Assembly: GCA_903820035.1 (NCBI GenBank)
Contig: CAIJFT010000319.1
Location: forward strand, 1-33,899
Origin: an uncultured Opitutia bacterium
Lineage (GTDB): Bacteria; Verrucomicrobiota; Verrucomicrobiia; Opitutales; Opitutaceae
Direction: 5' to 3'
DNA length: 33,899 nucleotides
Position 1 is the first letter of the stretch. Each line of letters begins with the position of its first letter. Positions 15,648-33,899 of this stretch are shown here, in pieces. The position numbers were made by a program, and so were the translations under genes. The notes below the pieces were generated by a model. The model was given only the letters and a program-made list of their open reading frames with translations. It did no database searches and had not been told where the DNA came from.

Positions 15648-16694
15648 TTACCGCCGCGAATCCAACGCCGGCGTCACGCGCTGCTCAATCCGATCAGCGC
15701 GGCGCACCTGAAACAACGCGGCCCAGCCCCGTTCGCTCGCAAAGCGAAACCCCGCGTCCGCGCCGAGCACGAATAAGGCCGTCGCACGCGAACTCGCGGC
15801 GGCGGACGTTTCCGCGATCACGCTCACCGCCGCCAACTCGCCGCGCACCGGCTCCCCACTCCGCGGGTCGATGATGTGGCCGTAACGCCGGCCACCTTGT
15901 GCGAAGAAATTCCGGTAATCACCGGAGGTCCCCAGCGCTTCGCCGGTCAGCGTCACCACGCGCGCCACGCCGGTTTCGGCGGGTTCGATCGCCACGCGCC
16001 AGCCCAAGCCGTCGAGGCCCTGCCCGGCGGAGCGCACATCGCCGGCGATGAGCACGAGGTGATTCGTCGCCCCGAGTCCGGTGAGCAACCCGCCCACGGC
16101 ATCGGCGCTAAATCCCTTCGCCAGCGACGCGAAATCCGCGGTCATGCCCGGCCGCGTGCGCCGCAGCGCCGGCGGCTCCGCCCGCGTCTCAAGCGCCCGC
16201 CAGTCGACCAGCGCCCGGCCGCGGGCAATTTCCTCCGCGGTCGGCAACGGTCCGCTCCGCCGCTGCGCGCCGAAGCCCCAGAGTTGCACCAGCGGCCATA
16301 CGGTCGCGTCGAAGGCCCCGTCGGTCAGCACACTAAGCTCGCGGCTCTGCGCCGCCACCGCGGCGAGCTCCGTCGGCACGTCCACCCAGCCGCAGGTGCC
16401 CGACGCGTTGAAGCGGGAGAGATCGGAGGTTGGTCGGTACGTGGACAACTGCTGCTCAAGTTGCTCCAAGCGGGCGGCGACGCGGTGCTCGACCTCGGCC
16501 GCTGCCAGCGCGGGCGTCGGCTGAACCCATTTCACCGTCCACGTCGTCCCCATCGCCTTGCCGGTAATCGCCGCCGGCTCCGCTGCGACGGCCGTTGCGA
16601 TCACCGCAACCCAAACCAGCCAAAACCGTACCCGGTGGGACCCGATGTCCCCATCGGGTCGTTCCCTCGCGGAAAAGCCATCCGCACTCCTCAC
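15648..16694 (-). CDS. apbE: FAD:protein FMN transferase (ApbE)
   Basis: ApbE cleaves FAD and attaches FMN through a phosphoester bond to Thr/Ser of partner flavoproteins outside the cytoplasm. Family marks are MGTTWTVKW near the mature N-terminus, LSTYRPTSDLSRFN, FASLAKGFSADAV, HLVLIAGDVRSAG, and GTSGDYRNFF followed by RYGHIIDPRSG, where the Asp of DPRSG helps bind Mg. I place the start at GTG 16694, which overlaps the TGA of the upstream gene (GTGA), giving 348 residues; no in-frame ATG gives a signal peptide. The signal core is FWLVWVAVIATAVAAE. Its n-region is encoded by a type B half-repeat (16634-16658), so the start may have been shaped by that insertion. Its substrate is almost certainly the FMN-binding protein encoded immediately upstream. 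Confidence 0.9.
   Translation of the reverse strand: MRSADGFSARERPDGDIGSHRVRFWLVWVAVIATAVAAEPAAITGKAMGTTWTVKWVQPTPALAAAEVEHRVAARLEQLEQQLSTYRPTSDLSRFNASGTCGWVDVPTELAAVAAQSRELSVLTDGAFDATVWPLVQLWGFGAQRRSGPLPTAEEIARGRALVDWRALETRAEPPALRRTRPGMTADFASLAKGFSADAVGGLLTGLGATNHLVLIAGDVRSAGQGLDGLGWRVAIEPAETGVARVVTLTGEALGTSGDYRNFFAQGGRRYGHIIDPRSGEPVRGELAAVSVIAETSAAASSRATALFVLGADAGFRFASERGWAALFQVRRADRIEQRVTPALDSRR
16634..16658. repeat. Type B half-repeat inside the apbE leader/signal-peptide region
   Basis: A single arm containing GGGACCCGATGTCCCCATC and ending GGG, nearly identical to the arms at 4877-4955. No second arm is visible. It encodes the segment RPDGDIGSH of ApbE in the chosen reading frame. Confidence 0.75.
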
Positions 16695-17956
16695 GGCACG
16701 CCCTTGATCCACACGAGCACCGGCAGGTAGTACGCATTCAACGCGACCGCCGCGGCCACCAGCGCCAGCGCCGCAGCGTCGCGCGCCGAGAAACGATCCG
16801 TCACGCCGCGGCCACGGACAAAATTCAACAGCGCCCCCGTCGGGCATCCGAAGCGGCAATACGCCTGCGGCACGAAGCACGCCGCCACCAGGCCGATGCC
16901 CGCCACCGTGAGCGTCGCCCAGCCGGCGGAGCGGACAATGTACGCAGCGAACGGTTCCAGCCCCGCGAGATCCAGCGGCAATGCCACCATCGCGACCAGG
17001 AGCGACAGCACGAGCAAACCACCCGGCAGATATTCGAGACCGCGCACGACGTCCGCCGGCAACGTCAGCTGCCAGCGCTTCGGGCGGATGCGACCGAGCA
17101 GCTCCTGCGCGGCGCCGTGGGGGCAAACGTGATGACAATAAAACGGTTTCCGCGTCGTCCAGGGCACGACGAACGCCGCGACCACCAGCACCGCGAGCCC
17201 GGGTGCGGACTGCCACGGCACGCCGGAGCGCGCCCAGCCCGCGAGCAATTTCACCGCGATCAGATCGCCGGCGATCAAGCCGACGTAAAGCACGAGCACG
17301 GCTTGGAAGAGAAGTTTCCACCGGTGCCGCCGCGCGGCGGGCCCGAAGGCGAGCAACCCGGCGGCCGCGATCACGGCGAACATGCCCCAGTCGCGCCAGC
17401 CGAGCCGGAGTCCCGGTCGGGCGACGATCTGGTCGGCGTTCGCCTGCAGCCGGGCCTTCACGCCCTGCGCCAGCGCCATGCTCGTCATGGTCGCGCCGGA
17501 AACGCCCTCGATTCCCGCCGCGCGGAGATCAAGCGCGGCGGCAGCGTCCCACGTGAGGCCGTTCCATTTTTTCAGGAAGCGACGGTCCGTCGCGATGTTC
17601 CCGACGTAGTCCTTGGTGTCCTCGGACGCATGGATTTTCAGCCCGAGGATTTTCCAATTGGGATCGAGGATCACGAGGGTGTCCGTCACCCCCGCGTAAC
17701 CGATGAAGTCGCGGGCCTGCGGTTGCGTGCGGACCACGTAGCCGAGTTCCCGGCCCGTGCGGTTGAGAATGAAGAAACCATCGCGCGCCGAGCTGTCGGG
17801 CCGCAACGAAGCGGCCTCCGGGAGAAACGCCCTCACCTCGTCCGCGCGCACCGGCGAGTCGCCGTGCGTGCGTTGTTGCACCGCGACGTCGCGGAGGAGC
17901 CACGCGATCGCAACGACGACGGCGAGACGGTAGAGTTGGAGGAGGAACGGTTTCAT
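16691..17956 (-). CDS. FMN-binding and [4Fe-4S] membrane electron-transfer protein (NosR/NapH-like)
   Basis: The protein has 421 residues. One N-terminal membrane helix (4-22) is followed by an exported FMN-binding domain (about 35-170) ending in GVSGATMTSMAL. SGAT at 153-156 is the flavinylation motif that ApbE modifies on Thr. About six membrane helices follow, with two CxxxCP motifs: C274HHVC278P and C367RFGC371P, the NosR/NapH-type ligands for an iron-sulfur site on the cytoplasmic face. The ferredoxin tail of full NosR is absent. The likely role is to pass electrons across the inner membrane to or from a periplasmic flavin. The terminal partner is unknown; no nos genes are present. The stop codon overlaps the apbE start, so the pair is translationally coupled. 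A type A hairpin lies 35 bp upstream. Confidence 0.9.
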   Translation of the reverse strand: MKPFLLQLYRLAVVVAIAWLLRDVAVQQRTHGDSPVRADEVRAFLPEAASLRPDSSARDGFFILNRTGRELGYVVRTQPQARDFIGYAGVTDTLVILDPNWKILGLKIHASEDTKDYVGNIATDRRFLKKWNGLTWDAAAALDLRAAGIEGVSGATMTSMALAQGVKARLQANADQIVARPGLRLGWRDWGMFAVIAAAGLLAFGPAARRHRWKLLFQAVLVLYVGLIAGDLIAVKLLAGWARSGVPWQSAPGLAVLVVAAFVVPWTTRKPFYCHHVCPHGAAQELLGRIRPKRWQLTLPADVVRGLEYLPGGLLVLSLLVAMVALPLDLAGLEPFAAYIVRSAGWATLTVAGIGLVAACFVPQAYCRFGCPTGALLNFVRGRGVTDRFSARDAAALALVAAAVALNAYYLPVLVWIKGVP

Positions 17957-27789: not shown

Positions 27790-29595
27790 TCAGCGGCTCC
27801 CCGCGGACGACTCCGTGAGGGTGCGCAGAAACGCCACCAGCGCCCGCTGGTCCTCCGCGCTGAGGCCGAGCCCCGCATCGGGATGCTTCGCGAGATTTGG
27901 ATCGAGGTTCGCCCCGCGCCGGACGCCGTGATCGTAGTGGGACACCACGTCCTCGAGCGTCGCGAAGCGGCCGTCGTGCATGTAAGGCGCGGTCAGCGCG
28001 ACATTCCGCAGCGACGGGGTCTTAAACTTCCCGCGATCGGTCGCTTGCCCGGTGACGGTCGCCCGCCCCGGGTCCGCCGACTCGCGATCGAGGCCGTTGT
28101 TTTTCGCCGCATAATCACTGAAAAGGATTCCACCGTGGCAATGGAAGCAATCGGCCCCGCGCAGGCCGCGGGCCGGATCAAATTCCCGCGAAAAGAGCTC
28201 GAAGCCGCGCTGCTCCTCGGCGCTCAACTCGGCCGCCCCGCGCATCGCCCGGTCGAATTTCGCGTCGGCCGCGACCAGCGTCAGTAAATACTGCTCCAAC
28301 GCCAGCGTCACGCGTTCGGGCGTGACCGTCGCGTCACCGAACACCACGGCAAACCGCGCCGCGAGCGCCAGATCCCCGGCCAGCACCGCGACGACCCGCG
28401 ACGGCTCGCCGTGCATCTCGATCGGGTTCGTCCACGCCGCCAGCGCCTGGTCGCGGATTCGCGGCCGGCTGCCGTCCCACGCGAACGCCGGATTCCACGC
28501 GAGGTTGAAGAGCGGCATCGCATTGCGCCGGCCGCGCGTGCCCTCCGACCCGCGGCTGAAGGCGACGCGATCGCCGAACGCGCGGTCGGGCAAATGACAG
28601 GAAGCGCAGGATTGCGTGCCGTTGCCGGAGAGGCGCGCATCGACGAACAGCGCCGCGCCGAGCGCGACGCCCTCGACGGTGAGCGGATTATCGGACGGCA
28701 GGTCCGGCTGCGGAAACCCGGCCGGCACGGTGAACGCCAGCGGCGTCACGGCCCCGCCCGAGGTCCCGCCGCTCACACGGCGGGGTACGCCGGGATTGTT
28801 GGTTCCGGCGCCGGGACCACGGAAGGGCGTCGGCGCAGCCTCCAGCCAAAACCACGCCCGCTCGAGGGCGGCCGCCAGCTCGGGCGCCAGGGTATCACCC
28901 GCCCCGGAATGCGTCGACTCGACGGCCTCGTCCGCCACGAGCGTCCGCGCGCCCAAAACCCGCGACAAGTCGAGCGCAAGGGTGACGGTCGTCGGACCCT
29001 GCACCGTCCACCCCGCGGCGAAGGCCACCCGCAGGCGGTGCGCGTCCGTAGCAATATGATACACGAAACCGCGCTCGCCGGAAGGCCCGCCCCACGTGCC
29101 CTCGAACGCCGCAAACACATAGCCGCCCTGCCAACTCCAGTGGAGGCCGTTGACGAGCGGATTGAGCGGATGGGTCGCAGGCCAGCGGCCGGGATCGCCA
29201 TGATTCAAATCGGCCGGAACGCCGACAACAAACGCGAGTCCGAGGTACTCTCCCTCCGGCACTCCCTGCAGCGTGAAACTCCTTCGCCCTTCCCCAACGT
29301 CGATCGCCCCACATTGGCCCTCGAGCCGTACCACGGCGCCATCGGTCCGTTGCAACGTCACCTCGGAGATCAACGCCGCCAGCCGCGTGATCCGTAGCGG
29401 CTGGCCCGCGGTGTTCGCCACCTCGGCCGACGGCACGGTCACCGGCGCCCGCCCCCAACGCGGCTCCAGCGCGACCGTCAAATCGGCCGCGAACCCGCCC
29501 ACGACGCCAGCAAGGACAAAGGCCAGCCAAGCCCCGGACTGCGCCGCCCGCCGGGCGCCGCGGCGGCAGTTGCGCTGGCCGGCAAAGTTTCCCAT
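27790..29595 (-). CDS. Secreted MbnP-MbnH fusion: MbnP-like domain plus diheme cytochrome c peroxidase
   Basis: The protein has 601 residues starting at MGNFAGQRN; a longer open frame upstream is the shadow of the response regulator. The signal peptide core is AWLAFVLAGVVGGFA. Residues 38-230 match the MbnP family: LTVALEPRWG, PLRITRLAALISEVTLQRTD, GEYLGLAFVVGVPADLNHGD and LHWSWQGGYVFAAFEG (151-166). Residues 290-601 are a MauG/MbnH-type diheme peroxidase with CASCH (330-334) and CFHCH (483-487), FAWDGS (371-376) and APYMHDGRFATLEDV. In methanotrophs, MbnH oxidises a Trp of the separate partner MbnP to kynurenine. Here substrate and enzyme seem to be one chain, so modification in cis is likely but inferred. 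A type A repeat encodes part of the linker (about residues 270-278). The start codon lies 9 bp from the divergent response regulator. Confidence 0.88.
   Translation of the reverse strand: MGNFAGQRNCRRGARRAAQSGAWLAFVLAGVVGGFAADLTVALEPRWGRAPVTVPSAEVANTAGQPLRITRLAALISEVTLQRTDGAVVRLEGQCGAIDVGEGRRSFTLQGVPEGEYLGLAFVVGVPADLNHGDPGRWPATHPLNPLVNGLHWSWQGGYVFAAFEGTWGGPSGERGFVYHIATDAHRLRVAFAAGWTVQGPTTVTLALDLSRVLGARTLVADEAVESTHSGAGDTLAPELAAALERAWFWLEAAPTPFRGPGAGTNNPGVPRRVSGGTSGGAVTPLAFTVPAGFPQPDLPSDNPLTVEGVALGAALFVDARLSGNGTQSCASCHLPDRAFGDRVAFSRGSEGTRGRRNAMPLFNLAWNPAFAWDGSRPRIRDQALAAWTNPIEMHGEPSRVVAVLAGDLALAARFAVVFGDATVTPERVTLALEQYLLTLVAADAKFDRAMRGAAELSAEEQRGFELFSREFDPARGLRGADCFHCHGGILFSDYAAKNNGLDRESADPGRATVTGQATDRGKFKTPSLRNVALTAPYMHDGRFATLEDVVSHYDHGVRRGANLDPNLAKHPDAGLGLSAEDQRALVAFLRTLTESSAGSR
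28763..28788. repeat. Type A hairpin repeat inside the MbnP-MbnH linker
   Basis: CCCGCCG (28765-28771), loop CTCACA, CGGCGGG (28778-28784). The stem is a third variant of the type A family, again fully paired, with a loop differing only in its last base. It is within coding sequence and gives VPRRVSGGT on the other strand, exactly between the two domains of the fusion. Confidence 0.8.
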
Positions 29596-29604
29596 CACTT
29601 CGCT

Positions 29605-30339
29605 ATGACCGACAGCGCCGAAGGCCGCACCCGCCTCCTGATGATCGATGATGACCGGAAGCTTTGCCGGCTCGTCGCGTCGTATTTGGAGCCGCTGGGC
29701 TTCGATGTCACCGCGGCCCACACCGGACCCGAAGGCGTGGAACGCGCGACGGCGGCAGACGCGACCTGGCACGCCATCATCCTCGACGTGATGCTGCCCG
29801 GCCTCGACGGCTTCGAGGTTTTGAAACGCATCCGCGCCCGCAGCCACATCCCGGTCCTGATGCTCACCGCGCGCGGCGACGAAACCGACCGCATCGTCGG
29901 TCTCGAAGTCGGCGCCGACGACTACCTGCCGAAAACCTTTTCCACCCGCGAACTCCTGGCCCGCCTCCGCGCCGTCCTGCGCCGCAGCGCGACCACCGCC
30001 GCCGCCGAAAACAAAGGCGCCGACGCGCCGCCGACCGAGTTGGTCGTCGGCCTGCTGCGGGTGAACCTCGATGCGCGCTCCGCCGTGATGGACACGACGC
30101 CGCTCGTGCTGACGCCGGTCGAATTCGACCTGCTCGCGAGTTTGGCGAAAGCCAAGGGCCGCGTGAAGACCCGCGAGTCGCTGCTCGATGAATGCCGCGA
30201 CCGTAACTACGACGTGTTTGACCGGTCGATCGACGTGCATGTGTCCTCGCTGCGGAAAAAATTGGGCGACGATGCGAAGGAGCCCCGCTACATCCGCACC
30301 GTGCGTTCCGCCGGGTACATGATGGTCGGACCGGAGTGA
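29605..30339 (+). CDS. OmpR/CpxR-type response regulator
   Basis: The protein has 244 residues. The receiver domain (about 10-128) has the acidic pocket DDD at 15-17, the phosphoacceptor Asp61 in IILDVMLPGLDG, Thr88 in MLTARGDE and Lys110 in YLPKTF. The Pro that normally follows this Lys (PKPF) is Thr here, a small deviation. The winged-helix domain begins near 145 and contains LTPVEFDLLASLAKAKGRV, DRSIDVHVSSLRKKLGDD and YIRTVRSAGYMM, typical of OmpR-family DNA binding. It resembles CpxR most. The expected partner is the kinase starting at 32872 on the same strand, but an oppositely oriented gene separates them. Direct-repeat sites that may be its targets lie at 32767-32837. Confidence 0.93.
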   Translation: MTDSAEGRTRLLMIDDDRKLCRLVASYLEPLGFDVTAAHTGPEGVERATAADATWHAIILDVMLPGLDGFEVLKRIRARSHIPVLMLTARGDETDRIVGLEVGADDYLPKTFSTRELLARLRAVLRRSATTAAAENKGADAPPTELVVGLLRVNLDARSAVMDTTPLVLTPVEFDLLASLAKAKGRVKTRESLLDECRDRNYDVFDRSIDVHVSSLRKKLGDDAKEPRYIRTVRSAGYMMVGPE

Positions 30340-30403
30340 GACGGGTGGACGGGCGGCCATCATCGCGCCGACTTGGGTCCGACCGGGCCTATTTCATTTC
30401 CGC

Positions 30404-32731
30404 TCATGGCAACACGTAGAGTTCGACGAGCGCGGTGCCGGTGGTGTTGCCCGCGCCGCTGACGATCGCGGTGTAGGATCCGGCGGGCAGGGTGGCGACC
30501 AGCGCGGCGTCCTTGCTGCCGGACGGCAGGGCAAACGCGCCGACTGCGCCCGCCGCCGTAGAAATCTCCAGCGGGTTGGCCGAACTCGCCCAGTTGTCGT
30601 TGCTCGCGAGCACCGTCGTACCGCGGTAAAGTGTGATCGTCGGATCCGCCAGTGCGTCGGTGACCCCGAAGCTCCCGAGCGTCGGGCCCACCGCGCGGAT
30701 CAAAAGCTTTAACGCGCCGCTCCCACTGATCACGAAGCCGGGGATCAGGACCGAGTCACCCGTGCCGACGTAGGCCCGCGTGGACGCGTTGATGACATTG
30801 ACGGACGACCCGGAGGACGCGTCGTAAACTTCCAGCAAGGCCACCCCGCTACCGCCGTCGGTCGCCGTCACCGGCGCGGTGTACGCCCCGGCGGGCAACG
30901 TCGCGACCAGCGCCGCATCCTTGCTGCCGCCGGTCAACGCAAACGCCCCGACCCCCGCCATCGTCCCCGCATCGGCGGACAGCCAGTTGTCGTTGCTCGC
31001 CACCGTGGCCGTCGCGCCGACCAGGCTGAAGCGCGGATCCGCCAAAACGCCGGTGACGCCGAAAGCCGCCAGCGACGGACCGACGGCACGCACGAGCATC
31101 GACTTCGTGCCGTTACCGTTGAGCACGAACCCGGGGATCGGCGTGCCCGCACTGCCGCCGACCGCAACGCGCGTCGCGATGTTCACGAGCCGCGCCGTAC
31201 CGGAAGAACCCACCGCCGCGGTCGTCGCGGCAGCGTTACCGATCCCGGAGAGCCCAGCGGAGCCGCGGGTATCGTAGGTCGCGAGCGCGGTGAGCGTCAC
31301 ACGGTAGTTGGGGGCAACGGTGGTCGTCGCCAACCGCGTGGTGTCGCCGCCGCTGCTCGTGACGGCACCCGCACCGGCGAGCGTCGTCCACGTCGCAGCA
31401 TCGGGCGAGGTTTCAAGCTTGTACGTCGCACCCTCCACGGACGTCCACGTGATCGTCACCGTGCCGCCGGCAGTGGTGGCGCTGACGGTGATCGGCGAGG
31501 CCTGGCTCGCGCGGACAAATTCGGTGACGGGCTCGTTGATGGCGTTGACCAGGCCGCCACTCGCCGTACCAAAGAACCACCGGCTGACCATATTGGGAAA
31601 CCGCGGCGTGCCATCCGTCTCGATGGTAAGGAAGTAGGCCCAGGTGCCGTTGGGAAATTCCGGCGTCACACCGAAGCGCACGTTGTACTCGTTGAGGTCG
31701 AAATCCGGGCCCTGGGACTTCCCGAGATCACCGAGGTAGTCGTAATCCTCGATGAAATGACCGAGCGTATAGGCCGGACTGACCGACGGGCCGTAGACCG
31801 CGGCCGGCAGCGTGGCGCTGCGGTTCTGCGCCCGGGCGGCCCACGCCGGCAAAACCGTGCGGCCGGTCGCCGCAAGATTGGCTGTGCCGTTGGCGCCGTC
31901 GCGCTTCACATAGCCGGAAATCATCCGGCGCAGGCCGCTCTTCGGGTCCAGCGGCGACGCATATCCATACGGACCATACACCGGCAGGCCGTCCTCCAGC
32001 CAGGCGACAATGGGCGAGTGGGCGGTGACCGGACCCGTACTCTCGGTGTAGAGCTTGGTCGCGGGGTTAAAATCGACGTGGTCACCCAACAGGTAGCGGA
32101 CCGCCGGGGCGTTGGCATGGTAATGGTGGTTCGTCATCGCCTGATGGGCGTAGGCGGGATCGAAGGTCTGCCCCTCGTTGGCGTACGCCTCGCGGTTCCA
32201 TACGGCGTCGCCGCGCAGGCCGTTCATGGGCGATGCATCGGTGTTGGCGGCGGTCGCGTAGGAGAACGCGTCGCGATTATCAAAGGCTGCAACCCCGTCG
32301 ACAAAGTAACCGATCGCGCCGAGGCCGGTCAGAGATTTCGCGGCGGGGATCGTCGGCGTACGCGGGATGCGGTAAAGCACCCCCATGTTGGCCGGATAGC
32401 TGGCAAAAGGCATCGTGTGCGCCGCGTTGCCGTACCAAGGGCCCATGACGTGGGTGCCGAGTCCGGTGGTCCGCAGGTAGACCCAGTTGGCCGACGAGGA
32501 CACTTGGATCACGCCGGCATAGCTGGGCGTGGCCTGACCGGTGGCGCCGCGGGACCAGGTCGTCACGGCGCTGCCGGCGACGCGCGCGGCATCGGTTTCA
32601 TAGATCCGCGCGTAGCGGCGGGTCCCGCCGGTCTGCCATGATTCCAGCAGCGGCTCGGCGGCGGACGAAAAAGTCCGCAGACAGGCGCAGCAGACGAGGG
32701 CGAGCGAGGGAATACGGGTAAAAGTGGGCAT
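30404..32731 (-). CDS. Secreted YHYH-domain protein with two C-terminal tandem repeats
   Basis: The protein has 775 residues from ATG 32731 (MPTFTRIPSL); a TTG five codons upstream is also in frame. It has a signal peptide (LALVCCACLRTFSSAAE). The YHYH domain runs from about 60 to 400 and carries NHHYHANAPAVRYLLGDH at 201-218 and DGLPVYGPYGY. Its function is unknown, although the His cluster suggests metal binding. A fibronectin-III-like segment follows (TVTITWTSVEGATYKLETS). The C-terminus holds two repeats of about 110-120 residues, each with a line like IPGFVLNGNGTKSMLVRAVG, a GVLADPRFSL or ALADPTITLY stretch, ASNDNW, and GGSKDAALVATLPAG. Repeats of this kind are common on secreted Opitutaceae proteins as I recall. 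The gene separates a response regulator from its likely kinase. Confidence 0.87.
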   Translation of the reverse strand: MPTFTRIPSLALVCCACLRTFSSAAEPLLESWQTGGTRRYARIYETDAARVAGSAVTTWSRGATGQATPSYAGVIQVSSSANWVYLRTTGLGTHVMGPWYGNAAHTMPFASYPANMGVLYRIPRTPTIPAAKSLTGLGAIGYFVDGVAAFDNRDAFSYATAANTDASPMNGLRGDAVWNREAYANEGQTFDPAYAHQAMTNHHYHANAPAVRYLLGDHVDFNPATKLYTESTGPVTAHSPIVAWLEDGLPVYGPYGYASPLDPKSGLRRMISGYVKRDGANGTANLAATGRTVLPAWAARAQNRSATLPAAVYGPSVSPAYTLGHFIEDYDYLGDLGKSQGPDFDLNEYNVRFGVTPEFPNGTWAYFLTIETDGTPRFPNMVSRWFFGTASGGLVNAINEPVTEFVRASQASPITVSATTAGGTVTITWTSVEGATYKLETSPDAATWTTLAGAGAVTSSGGDTTRLATTTVAPNYRVTLTALATYDTRGSAGLSGIGNAAATTAAVGSSGTARLVNIATRVAVGGSAGTPIPGFVLNGNGTKSMLVRAVGPSLAAFGVTGVLADPRFSLVGATATVASNDNWLSADAGTMAGVGAFALTGGSKDAALVATLPAGAYTAPVTATDGGSGVALLEVYDASSGSSVNVINASTRAYVGTGDSVLIPGFVISGSGALKLLIRAVGPTLGSFGVTDALADPTITLYRGTTVLASNDNWASSANPLEISTAAGAVGAFALPSGSKDAALVATLPAGSYTAIVSGAGNTTGTALVELYVLP

Positions 32732-32766
32732 GTTGGATGGGAACAACTCCAGAAAACCGCATTGCG

Positions 32767-32837
32767 GTTAAGCGATTGTGAGTGCGAGGCAACGTTCGTG
32801 TTAAGCCCGCGTAAACGTTGCGGAAGATTCCGTTAAC
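32767..32837 (+). promoter_or_regulatory. Candidate OmpR/CpxR-type operator between the YHYH gene and the kinase
   Basis: Four GTWAA-like half-sites on the plus strand: GTTAAGC at 32767, GTTAAGC at 32800, GTAAAC at 32811 and GTTAAC at 32832. Their start-to-start distances are 33, 11 and 21 bp, close to whole helical turns. The 32800/32811 pair (GTTAA-N6-GTAAA) resembles the CpxR box of tandem GTAAA half-sites. An 8-bp inverted repeat GCAACGTT/AACGTTGC (32789-32796, 32814-32821) overlaps it. The region lies between divergent starts at 32731 and 32872. Confidence 0.4.
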
Positions 32838-32871
32838 TGCCCTGATTTTCCCGCGTCCTCCTCCTCTGCCG

Positions 32872-33899
32872 ATGCGCGTTTCCTACCCGCTCTCACTCAA
32901 AGTTTCGCTGTGGCTGATGTTGAATCTGCTGCTGTTGGCGGCGCTTGGTATCGGATTCTTCACCCTGCACGGCGGGCTTGGCTGGAGCGCGCTCGTGGCG
33001 GGCCCGACCGGCGATCGCGCGCAGGAACTCTTCAATCTCATCGCCGGCGAAGCCGCGGTGGCCAACGGCGAAGCGCGCAACGCCGTCCTCACGCGCTTCG
33101 GCGCGGCGTCGAACGCCGAGTTTTACCTGTTTGCGGCCGACGAAAAACTGATCGCTGGGCCGGCCGTGGACCTGCCGCCTGCCGTCCGCGAACGCATGGA
33201 GTTCCGCGGAGCCGGCTGGGCCTTCCCCGGTGGCCCGGGTGGACCCGGCGGTCCGGGAGCTCCGGGCTTCGGCGGCAAGGGTCCGGGTATGCGTGGCGAT
33301 TTGCGCCGCGGGCCCGATGGCGAATCCGACCCGGGGCGTTGGCGCGACCTGCCGCCCGCCGTTCAGGAAAAACTCCTGCGCGAACGCCGTGAGGCCCGCG
33401 AGTCACACGAGACCACCGAACGCACCCGCTTCGGCCCCGTCGGCGCCGCCAACGGCATTCTCCCGAGCCGCGCCACTTTTCGTTTCATCGCGCGGACCGA
33501 CTCGCCGGCCGAGTACTGGATCGGCATGCGCGTCCCCTTCGCCCCCACCGAGCGCGCGGGCCGGATGGTGCCCGCCAAGATGGTCGCCCGGGTGGGCTCG
33601 TTCTGGGGCATGCTCAGTCTGCTCGGTATCCACACCTGGCTGCTCGCAGGCGGCGGCGTGCTCGCGTTGTCCGTCGTGTTTTGGTTGCCGCTCGTCAGCA
33701 GCATCACCCGGTCCCTCGGCCAACTCACGACCGCCACCGAAAAAATCGCCGAGGGGCACTTCGACACCCGCGTCGCGAGCCGGCGGCGCGACGAACTCGG
33801 CCAACTCGGCGACTCCGTCAACCGCATGGCCGCCCGACTCGACGCGCACATGAACGGCCAAAAGCGGTTTCTCGGCGACGTCGCGCACGAGTTGTGTTC
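32872..33899 (+). CDS. Sensor histidine kinase (CpxA/HAMP type), 3' end outside window
   Basis: The frame opens at ATG 32872 and runs off the window after 342 codons. A membrane helix is at about 10-32 (LWLMLNLLLLAALGIGFFTL), then a periplasmic sensor of about 210 residues, a second helix near 245-275 (TWLLAGGGVLALSVVFWLPL), a HAMP linker (SLGQLTTATEKIAEGHFDTR, then DELGQLGDSVNRMAARLD), and the start of the HisKA helix RFLGDVAHEL with phosphoacceptor His339. ATP-binding parts lie beyond the window. The sensor contains a Gly-Pro-rich, collagen-like stretch at about 118-142 (GGPGGPGGPGAPGFGGKGPG) followed by Arg- and Glu-rich sequence. Partner: probably the response regulator at 29605. No Shine-Dalgarno is seen; the leader is CCTCCTCCTCTGCCG. 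Confidence 0.92.
   Translation, partial: MRVSYPLSLKVSLWLMLNLLLLAALGIGFFTLHGGLGWSALVAGPTGDRAQELFNLIAGEAAVANGEARNAVLTRFGAASNAEFYLFAADEKLIAGPAVDLPPAVRERMEFRGAGWAFPGGPGGPGGPGAPGFGGKGPGMRGDLRRGPDGESDPGRWRDLPPAVQEKLLRERREARESHETTERTRFGPVGAANGILPSRATFRFIARTDSPAEYWIGMRVPFAPTERAGRMVPAKMVARVGSFWGMLSLLGIHTWLLAGGGVLALSVVFWLPLVSSITRSLGQLTTATEKIAEGHFDTRVASRRRDELGQLGDSVNRMAARLDAHMNGQKRFLGDVAHELC

Follow-up and report, generated by a model that had tools for sequence, protein, structure and literature searches.

A gene in a 33,899-nt stretch of contig CAIJFT010000319.1 from an uncultured Opitutia bacterium (the whole stretch is called the window in the following) raises the question whether a protein of the copper-binding MbnP family and the diheme protein MbnH can be made as one chain, and what such a chain would do. 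We observed one open reading frame on the minus strand (27790-29595, stop included), which runs from an ATG at 29595 to a stop codon at 27790-27792 and encodes 601 amino acids with zero internal stops. A probable signal peptide was recognized by eye at about residues 1-36 (29488-29595, minus strand), where the structural model has a helix at residues 14-33; a lipobox was not seen in this protein, and a lipobox-like pattern occurs in 1 of 76 related fusions compared below. The rest of the chain is composed of an MbnP-fold domain (residues 38-256, 28828-29484), a linker (residues 257-296, 28708-28827) and an MbnH/MauG-like diheme domain (residues 298-596, 27808-28704), all on the minus strand. 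Searching Pfam, we found the MbnP family PF20243 at residues 38-218 (E 3e-27; 96.2 bits, above the cut-off of 27), the CCP_MauG family PF03150 at residues 308-455 (E 4.5e-47) and a cytochrome c match at residues 481-593 that lies marginally above the cut-off (E 0.00046). The NCBIfam models gave scores below their cut-offs, with 46.5 bits of 140 for the MbnP equivalog model TIGR04052, 220.6 of 362.85 for the MbnH model TIGR04039 and 160.7 of 443.85 for TTQ_mauG. By the same measures the Methylocystis MbnP (264.4 bits) is above the TIGR04052 cut-off and the Deinococcus MbnP (85.2 bits) is also below it, and the separate diheme protein of Deinococcus (263.5 bits) likewise stays under that of TIGR04039. 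A sequence search of the PDB with the whole fusion retrieved MbnH 6e1c (E 1.1e-45) and, weakly, MbnP 7l6g (E 0.0039; E 0.00073 using the N-terminal part alone and E 0.014 using a profile of 24 MbnP parts). The AlphaFold model, for which the 76 fusions served as input alignment, consists of two domains and has a pLDDT of 89.3 and a pTM of 0.88. In the structure search, 6e1c_A matched residues 285-601 of the model with Z 33.7 (1.8 A over 303 residues, 36% identity), higher than all peroxidases and MauG among the matches listed (Z at most 29.3), and 7l6g_E matched residues 35-261 with Z 17.7 (3.7 A over 217 residues, 21% identity). An earlier note, made from the sequence alone, had described an MbnP-like domain followed by a diheme peroxidase in one fused polypeptide, had placed the two CxxCH motifs at residues 330 and 483, and had proposed a domain search and a structure prediction as checks. 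The profile and structure matches bear out both halves, the motifs lie exactly where they were placed, and the frame is uninterrupted; the strand, which that note did not give, is the minus strand.

In order to evaluate whether the fused frame occurs elsewhere, we used two surveys of different design. The first one covered 387 sampled genomes of the window's phylum, which were searched with PF20243 and without any motif selection. MbnP was found in 22 genomes, of which 21 belong to the window's class (five families) and one lies outside this class. The 27 MbnP rows correspond to 26 loci: 24 are intact fusions and two are broken or partial, and an intact separate MbnP/MbnH pair was not found at any of the 26 loci of this sample. 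One of the two exceptions is a single MbnP gene broken across frames (L017 with L026, genome G108); the other is an N-terminal MbnP fragment in the genome outside the window's class (L022, genome G121), near which a CxxCH motif is absent from the forward frames of 3,255 bases. These broken or partial frames (L017, L022 and L026) are left out of the alignment of 24 fusions. The second survey scanned a contig collection with the MbnP part and the pattern [LM]HWxW[QSA][GS]GY, and the best 80 of 437 relatives were kept, so that both the HWxW motif and similarity to the fusions entered into the choice of this set. Within it, 76 relatives contain two in-frame CxxCH motifs and 4 run off contig ends; the alignment of 76 fusions leaves out L037, L076, L084, L090 and L095, whose frames are open at a contig end. 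Both alignments overlap in 4 rows, which results in 96 distinct fusions, the window protein included. With both domains in one frame at 24 of 26 and at 76 of 80 loci, neither a chance open frame nor an assembly fault can account for the fusion, and the fused MbnP/MbnH-type protein is real and conserved.

The fused protein recurs in scattered relatives and is a minority trait in the phylum, as the 22 MbnP-bearing genomes of 387 indicate. The titles of the 80 relatives name mostly Verrucomicrobiota groups, together with two Planctomycetota (L065, L075), one Fimbriimonadia (L062) and one uncultured bacterium (L070). Named strains with the fusion are Rubritalea marina, Haloferula rosea, Chthoniobacter flavus, Roseibacillus persicicus and Brevifollis gellanilyticus, and the named tree rows closest to the window protein are Opitutaceae of the Verrucomicrobiota. 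In a tree of the diheme part, one branch with a support of 100/100 splits the 76 fusions from 7 separate MbnHs, and this branch fits a single fusion event. L062, L065, L070 and L075 nest inside the fusions in this tree. PF20243 was found in 1 of 343 genomes of the phylum of L065 and in 1 of 151 genomes of that of L062, in both cases the seed genome itself, and the open frames of L062 and L065 both have fusion length. From tree position and profile counts, we read the fusions of L062, L065 and L075 as probable cases of transfer. The window's own genome contains no second MbnP and no other strong MbnH match, which agrees with the claim of the earlier note that a fusion fixes the partner assignment. 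That note had also seen no methanobactin genes in the window, and this extends to the whole genome for the MbnB family (PF05114), of which there are 0 matches in an assembly that is 98% complete. A methanobactin operon is therefore disfavoured, with MbnB as the one component searched genome-wide. A copper P-ATPase was considered as a clue as well; one match over the cut-off is present in the genome, but the same is true for 13 of 14 control genomes, which makes it uninformative.

Next, we focused on the residues of the diheme half. The first heme motif, CASCH (residues 330-334, 28594-28608, minus strand), and the second one, CFHCH (residues 483-487, 28135-28149, minus strand), are invariant at C330, C333 and H334 and at C483, C486 and H487. 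Bacterial cytochrome c peroxidases have Met as a ligand of one heme. In this column, which holds Met in the peroxidases 1iqc, 4aal, 4aao and 3hq9, the fusions carry Y554 (27934-27936, minus strand) in 76 of 76 sequences, aligned with the Tyr of MbnH 6e1c. W367 and W373 are invariant in the fusions too, and W373 matches the Trp of the WDG motif of the peroxidases. The Tyr together with this Trp pattern favours MauG/MbnH-like long-range oxidation over peroxidase turnover, as far as can be judged from aligned residues. A plain cytochrome c peroxidase is disfavoured by the Tyr column and by the fold ranking.

The MbnP half combines one conserved and one altered set of positions. The copper of methanotroph MbnP is reportedly bound by His, Met and water with a kynurenine nearby, and MbnH is said to oxidise the first Trp of the MbnP WxW motif to this kynurenine, which is reportedly required for Cu(I) binding. 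In the fusions the corresponding motif is HWxW (29131-29142, minus strand) with H152, W153 as the predicted kynurenine, and W155; further predicted copper ligands are H180 (29056-29058, minus strand) and H229 of a THS motif (28909-28911, minus strand). None of these five residues varies across the 76 fusions, a set picked for the HWxW motif. In the 24 fusions that were not picked by motif, H142, H152, W153, H180 and H229 are found in 24 of 24, and W155 in 23 of 24 with Pro in the remaining one (L021). W153, W155 and H180 are also common to all 6 separate plasmid MbnPs compared, so that the kynurenine-precursor position is occupied by Trp in every fusion and every separate MbnP of these sets, and H180, as an invariant His, is the presumed counterpart of the His copper ligand in 7l6g. 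Of the Trp residues that the earlier note had listed for alignment with the modified Trp of MbnP, W153 and W155 are thus conserved, while W138 (30 of 76), W168 (49 of 76) and W196 (5 of 76) are not.

The copper-site residues of known MbnPs, which the same note had named for comparison, were not recovered as a whole: the Met ligand is not kept, since of the two places where it could lie one holds His229 and the other Leu151 in all 76 fusions, and the four-Cys motif is lost. The first candidate is the Met of CMS or CMG in four-Cys MbnPs, at the place of which all fusions have THS. Three MAFFT modes place H229 on this Met for 4 of 4 four-Cys MbnPs and a fourth mode does so for 3 of 4; another alignment sets H229 three columns off, and in the Deinococcus MbnPs the H229 column holds Gln or Thr. 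Profile-profile comparisons of fusions and separate MbnPs stop short of H229 and have no bearing on the exchange of Met for His. The second candidate lies two positions before the first Trp of WxW, where the 24 fusions have Leu in 21 and Met in 3; it is followed by the invariant H152, at the place of which separate MbnPs carry Tyr, Phe, Ala or Trp. If the Met of CMS is the ligand, it is replaced by His in the fusions, and if the other Met is the ligand, it is replaced by Leu in most of them. No fusion among the 76 holds four Cys in the MbnP part (0 Cys in 54, 1 in 18, 2 in 3 and 3 in 1), and the Deinococcus MbnPs likewise lack the four-Cys motif. The invariant His229 and His152 suggest a Cu(I) site composed of two His and kynurenine.

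Such a ligand set has been described in other proteins. The Cu(I) ligands of MopE* are H132, H203 and Kyn130 (PMC3423442) and those of CorA are H64, H114 and Kyn62 (PMC3912023), and a MauG-like cytochrome is co-transcribed in both cases (PMC3423442; PMC3912023). The fusion may therefore carry, by analogy, a MopE-like ligand set on an MbnP fold. MopE*/CorA with SACCP/CorB of Methylococcus and Methylomicrobium have a MauG-like diheme partner as the fusion does and would share with it a ligand set of one kynurenine and two His, which is a prediction for the fusion; their cytochrome is a separate gene, whereas in the fusion it is part of the same chain. When the diheme cytochrome next to the CorA-like protein of Methylomicrobium alcaliphilum was lost, growth remained unharmed, and non-enzymatic Trp oxidation was proposed (PMC3912023). 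MopE and CorA were not among the rows of the PDB sequence or structure searches, which is no proof that a likeness is absent.

A close relative is the MbnP/MbnH pair itself (7l6g, 6e1c), with which the fusion shares both folds, the first Trp of WxW, the H180 equivalent, two CxxCH motifs and the Tyr column. It differs from the pair in being one chain instead of two, in the missing four-Cys motif, in THS His for CMS Met, in Leu for the Met before WxW followed by the invariant His, in scores under both NCBIfam cut-offs and in a genome without MbnB. MbnP and MbnH are known as adjacent genes, also outside methanobactin operons (PMC3621798; PMC9426467). An example on a plasmid of Deinococcus radiodurans is the pair of WP_187767772.1 (MbnP family) and WP_028328040.1 (cytochrome-c peroxidase), which has the same gene order as the fusion; these are two chains encoded 55 bases apart and adjoin CopC/CopD. 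Scored with the profile of the fusions, the MbnP of this pair came first among the separate MbnPs with 57.1 bits, and that of D. grandis reached 55.4. The D. radiodurans MbnP has Met-Tyr-Trp where the fusions have Leu-His-Trp, and there is an offset of 3 columns between its C-terminal His and H229. The diheme fold is also similar to that of MauG (3l4m_B, Z 29.0, 2.2 A over 282 residues), whose substrate is a separate protein, methylamine dehydrogenase, with TTQ as the product. In 4 of 7 annotated plasmid loci, copper or methanobactin genes adjoin the separate pair or the diheme gene (Deinococcus radiodurans, D. grandis, Paracoccus and Methylocystis), and in the other 3 (Trichormus, Pseudoalteromonas and Diaphorobacter) such genes are absent beside the pair. 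In plasmid records, several diheme proteins of MbnH type (H3, H4, H7, H13 and H16-H19) carry the name 'methanobactin export MATE transporter MbnM', which looks like a spread annotation error.

We consider it probable that the gene encodes a secreted (periplasmic or surface) Cu(I)-binding protein that carries its own maturation enzyme. In the proposed course of events, two c-type hemes would be attached to the C-terminal diheme domain, and the loaded domain would react with peroxide or oxygen to give a high-valent state in which one heme is His/Tyr-ligated via Y554. This state would convert W153 of the MbnP-fold domain into kynurenine by oxidation, in the simplest case without involving a second chain, and the kynurenine would form a high-affinity Cu(I) site with H180, H229 and perhaps H152. 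Outside the cytoplasm, the matured fusion could scavenge or store copper or act as a copper chaperone, and it would work together with the YHYH protein described below, in Opitutaceae under a two-component system. A copper role is proposed because of the protein family and of the copper or methanobactin genes at 4 of 7 plasmid loci, and not because of the genes beside the fusion. Points that speak against this reading are the scores under both NCBIfam cut-offs, the lost Met ligand, the Pro in place of W155 in L021, the unharmed growth of the M. alcaliphilum strain without its diheme cytochrome and the lack of a recurrent copper gene near the fusion.

The intramolecular modification put forward in the earlier note is plausible given the kept linker length and the two-domain model, although a reaction between two molecules is possible as well. 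In the latter case one fusion molecule would modify another one in a dimer and the fusion would merely set a 1:1 ratio. The separate MbnP/MbnH pairs do react between chains, and the linker contains a low-confidence stretch at residues 265-278 (pLDDT below 50 at 265-270 and 272-278), both of which agree with a reaction in trans; the pTM of the single-chain model and a segment 256-291 that is 25 to 36 residues long in 74 of 76 fusions favour the reaction in cis without proving it, and we regard the trans reaction as rather unlikely. Many peroxidase chains align to the model from residues 151-154 on, which is a weak and indirect hint on docking.

For better evaluation of the biological context we analyzed the genes around the fusion. 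Clustering of the neighbours within 7 kb of the 80 loci put a YHYH-domain protein (PF14240) in first place (61 loci), followed by a response regulator (18) and a kinase (16). In the window this protein is encoded at 30404-32746 on the minus strand. The 61 YHYH genes are located upstream on the same strand in 51 loci and downstream in 10, and 41 of them lie within 150 bases of the fusion; among the 63 loci with at least 4 kb of upstream sequence, YHYH is present in 51 and missing in 12. In the 387 genomes YHYH was found in 48, and all 22 MbnP genomes are among these (hypergeometric 7e-23 over genomes, with relatedness not controlled); counted by genus, YHYH is present in 16 of 16 with MbnP versus 34 of 197 (2e-14, again without control for relatedness). 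The distance to MbnP is less than 5 kb in 17 of the 22 genomes, and in 5 (G140, G187, G190, G199 and G339) YHYH occurs only elsewhere. Each of the two genomes with partial or broken MbnP genes (G121 with L022 and G108 with L017/L026) has a YHYH match within 3 kb of them. A six-frame reading of the 8 plasmid loci contains no YHYH. For the model of the YHYH domain (pLDDT 94.0, pTM 0.92), Foldseek gave no match with an E-value under 1 (best 1.7) and VIA gave no row at Z of at least 2 among 192 chains, and the PDB contains no significant match by sequence; the absence of a PDB match for the model is no proof of a new fold. H201, H208, H210 and H243 are invariant in the 53 YHYH proteins compared and suggest a metal site, and the family also has an invariant Trp.

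With this Trp and His, and as the commonest neighbour (61 of 80 loci; present in 22 of 22 genomes), the YHYH protein could itself be the main target of the diheme domain, with the MbnP-fold domain as a docking or sensing module. We judge this unlikely: W153 is kept in 76 of 76 fusions as well as in the unselected 24 and would be needless for a mere docking module, and 5 of 22 genomes lack a YHYH gene in the 5 kb around MbnP. Similarly, copper could be bound by the His residues H152, H180 and H229 without kynurenine while the diheme domain works as a plain protective or sensing peroxidase. The additional invariant His residues, one adjacent to the Trp and others at a distance from it, and the lost Met ligand are consistent with this explanation, but the Tyr in the peroxidase Met column as in MbnH, the first Trp shared by all six separate MbnPs and the fold match to MbnH above all listed peroxidases argue against it, and we hold it to be improbable. 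We therefore retain the self-maturing Cu(I)-binding protein as the preferred reading.

Further neighbours in the window are an OmpR-type response regulator (29605-30339, plus strand), which is located between the two minus-strand genes, and the start of a sensor kinase with a HAMP domain (32818-33897, plus strand), which is cut by the contig end and is likely the partner of the regulator. Thus, strands alternate from 27790 to 33897 (fusion minus, regulator plus, YHYH minus, kinase plus), and 9 bases separate the start codons of fusion and regulator. Among the 80 loci, 19 have an opposite-strand regulator between YHYH and fusion, and 15 of these also show a kinase match further along. YHYH and fusion are more than 2 kb apart in four of the 19 (L030, L031, L036 and L045). 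Six of the 19 have a regulator frame that, as read, extends over the start of the fusion, which makes the regulator start unsure. In 9 other loci the regulator is divergent and lies outside the two genes; 7 of them have the end of YHYH within 50 bases of the fusion. If transcription continued from YHYH into the fusion, the RNA would run antisense through the regulator gene. Layouts that span an antisense gene in this way are named noncontiguous operons (PMC7154746), and the arrangement of YHYH, regulator and fusion is possibly one of them, a guess from gene order alone. No recurrent copper gene was found beside the fusion, as the neighbour clusters present in at least 5 of 80 loci comprise, apart from small ones, only YHYH, the regulator and the kinase. 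At 8 of the 80 loci a small protein that looks secreted is encoded near the fusion; it has an LTxxQ-like stretch and resembles CpxP/Spy by eye (for example L105:3451-4194, with similar ORFs in 7 other loci). The window also encodes a cytochrome b562-like protein (PF07361; 25778-26347, minus strand), beyond a PMT-like gene that ends beside the fusion, and an ApbE-family flavin transferase (15648-17321) with a long N-terminal extension, matched at residues 257-537 of 557 with the ORF start as called.

A wider reading, which we put forward tentatively, is that of a methanobactin-independent copper system of the Verrucomicrobiota, in which the MbnP fold has exchanged its His/Met/kynurenine site for a His/His/kynurenine Cu(I) site, the fused diheme domain carries out the maturation in cis, and a YHYH metalloprotein whose fold the PDB lacks so far acts as a partner. 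The paper listings and passages covered contain neither an MbnP-MbnH fusion, which the main MbnP/MbnH papers may nevertheless mention, nor a link between YHYH and copper, and domain databases probably list the MbnP-MbnH architecture. To our knowledge, MauG-like oxidation of a Trp in a partner protein otherwise involves two proteins. With enzyme and substrate in one chain, at a fixed ratio and perhaps in a fixed geometry, this Trp oxidation would become directly testable. If the ligand swap is true, two protein families would have arrived at the same kynurenine/two-His copper chemistry. Finally, the YHYH family, which occurs in 48 of 387 genomes and has no PDB relative by sequence or fold, gains a testable copper hypothesis.
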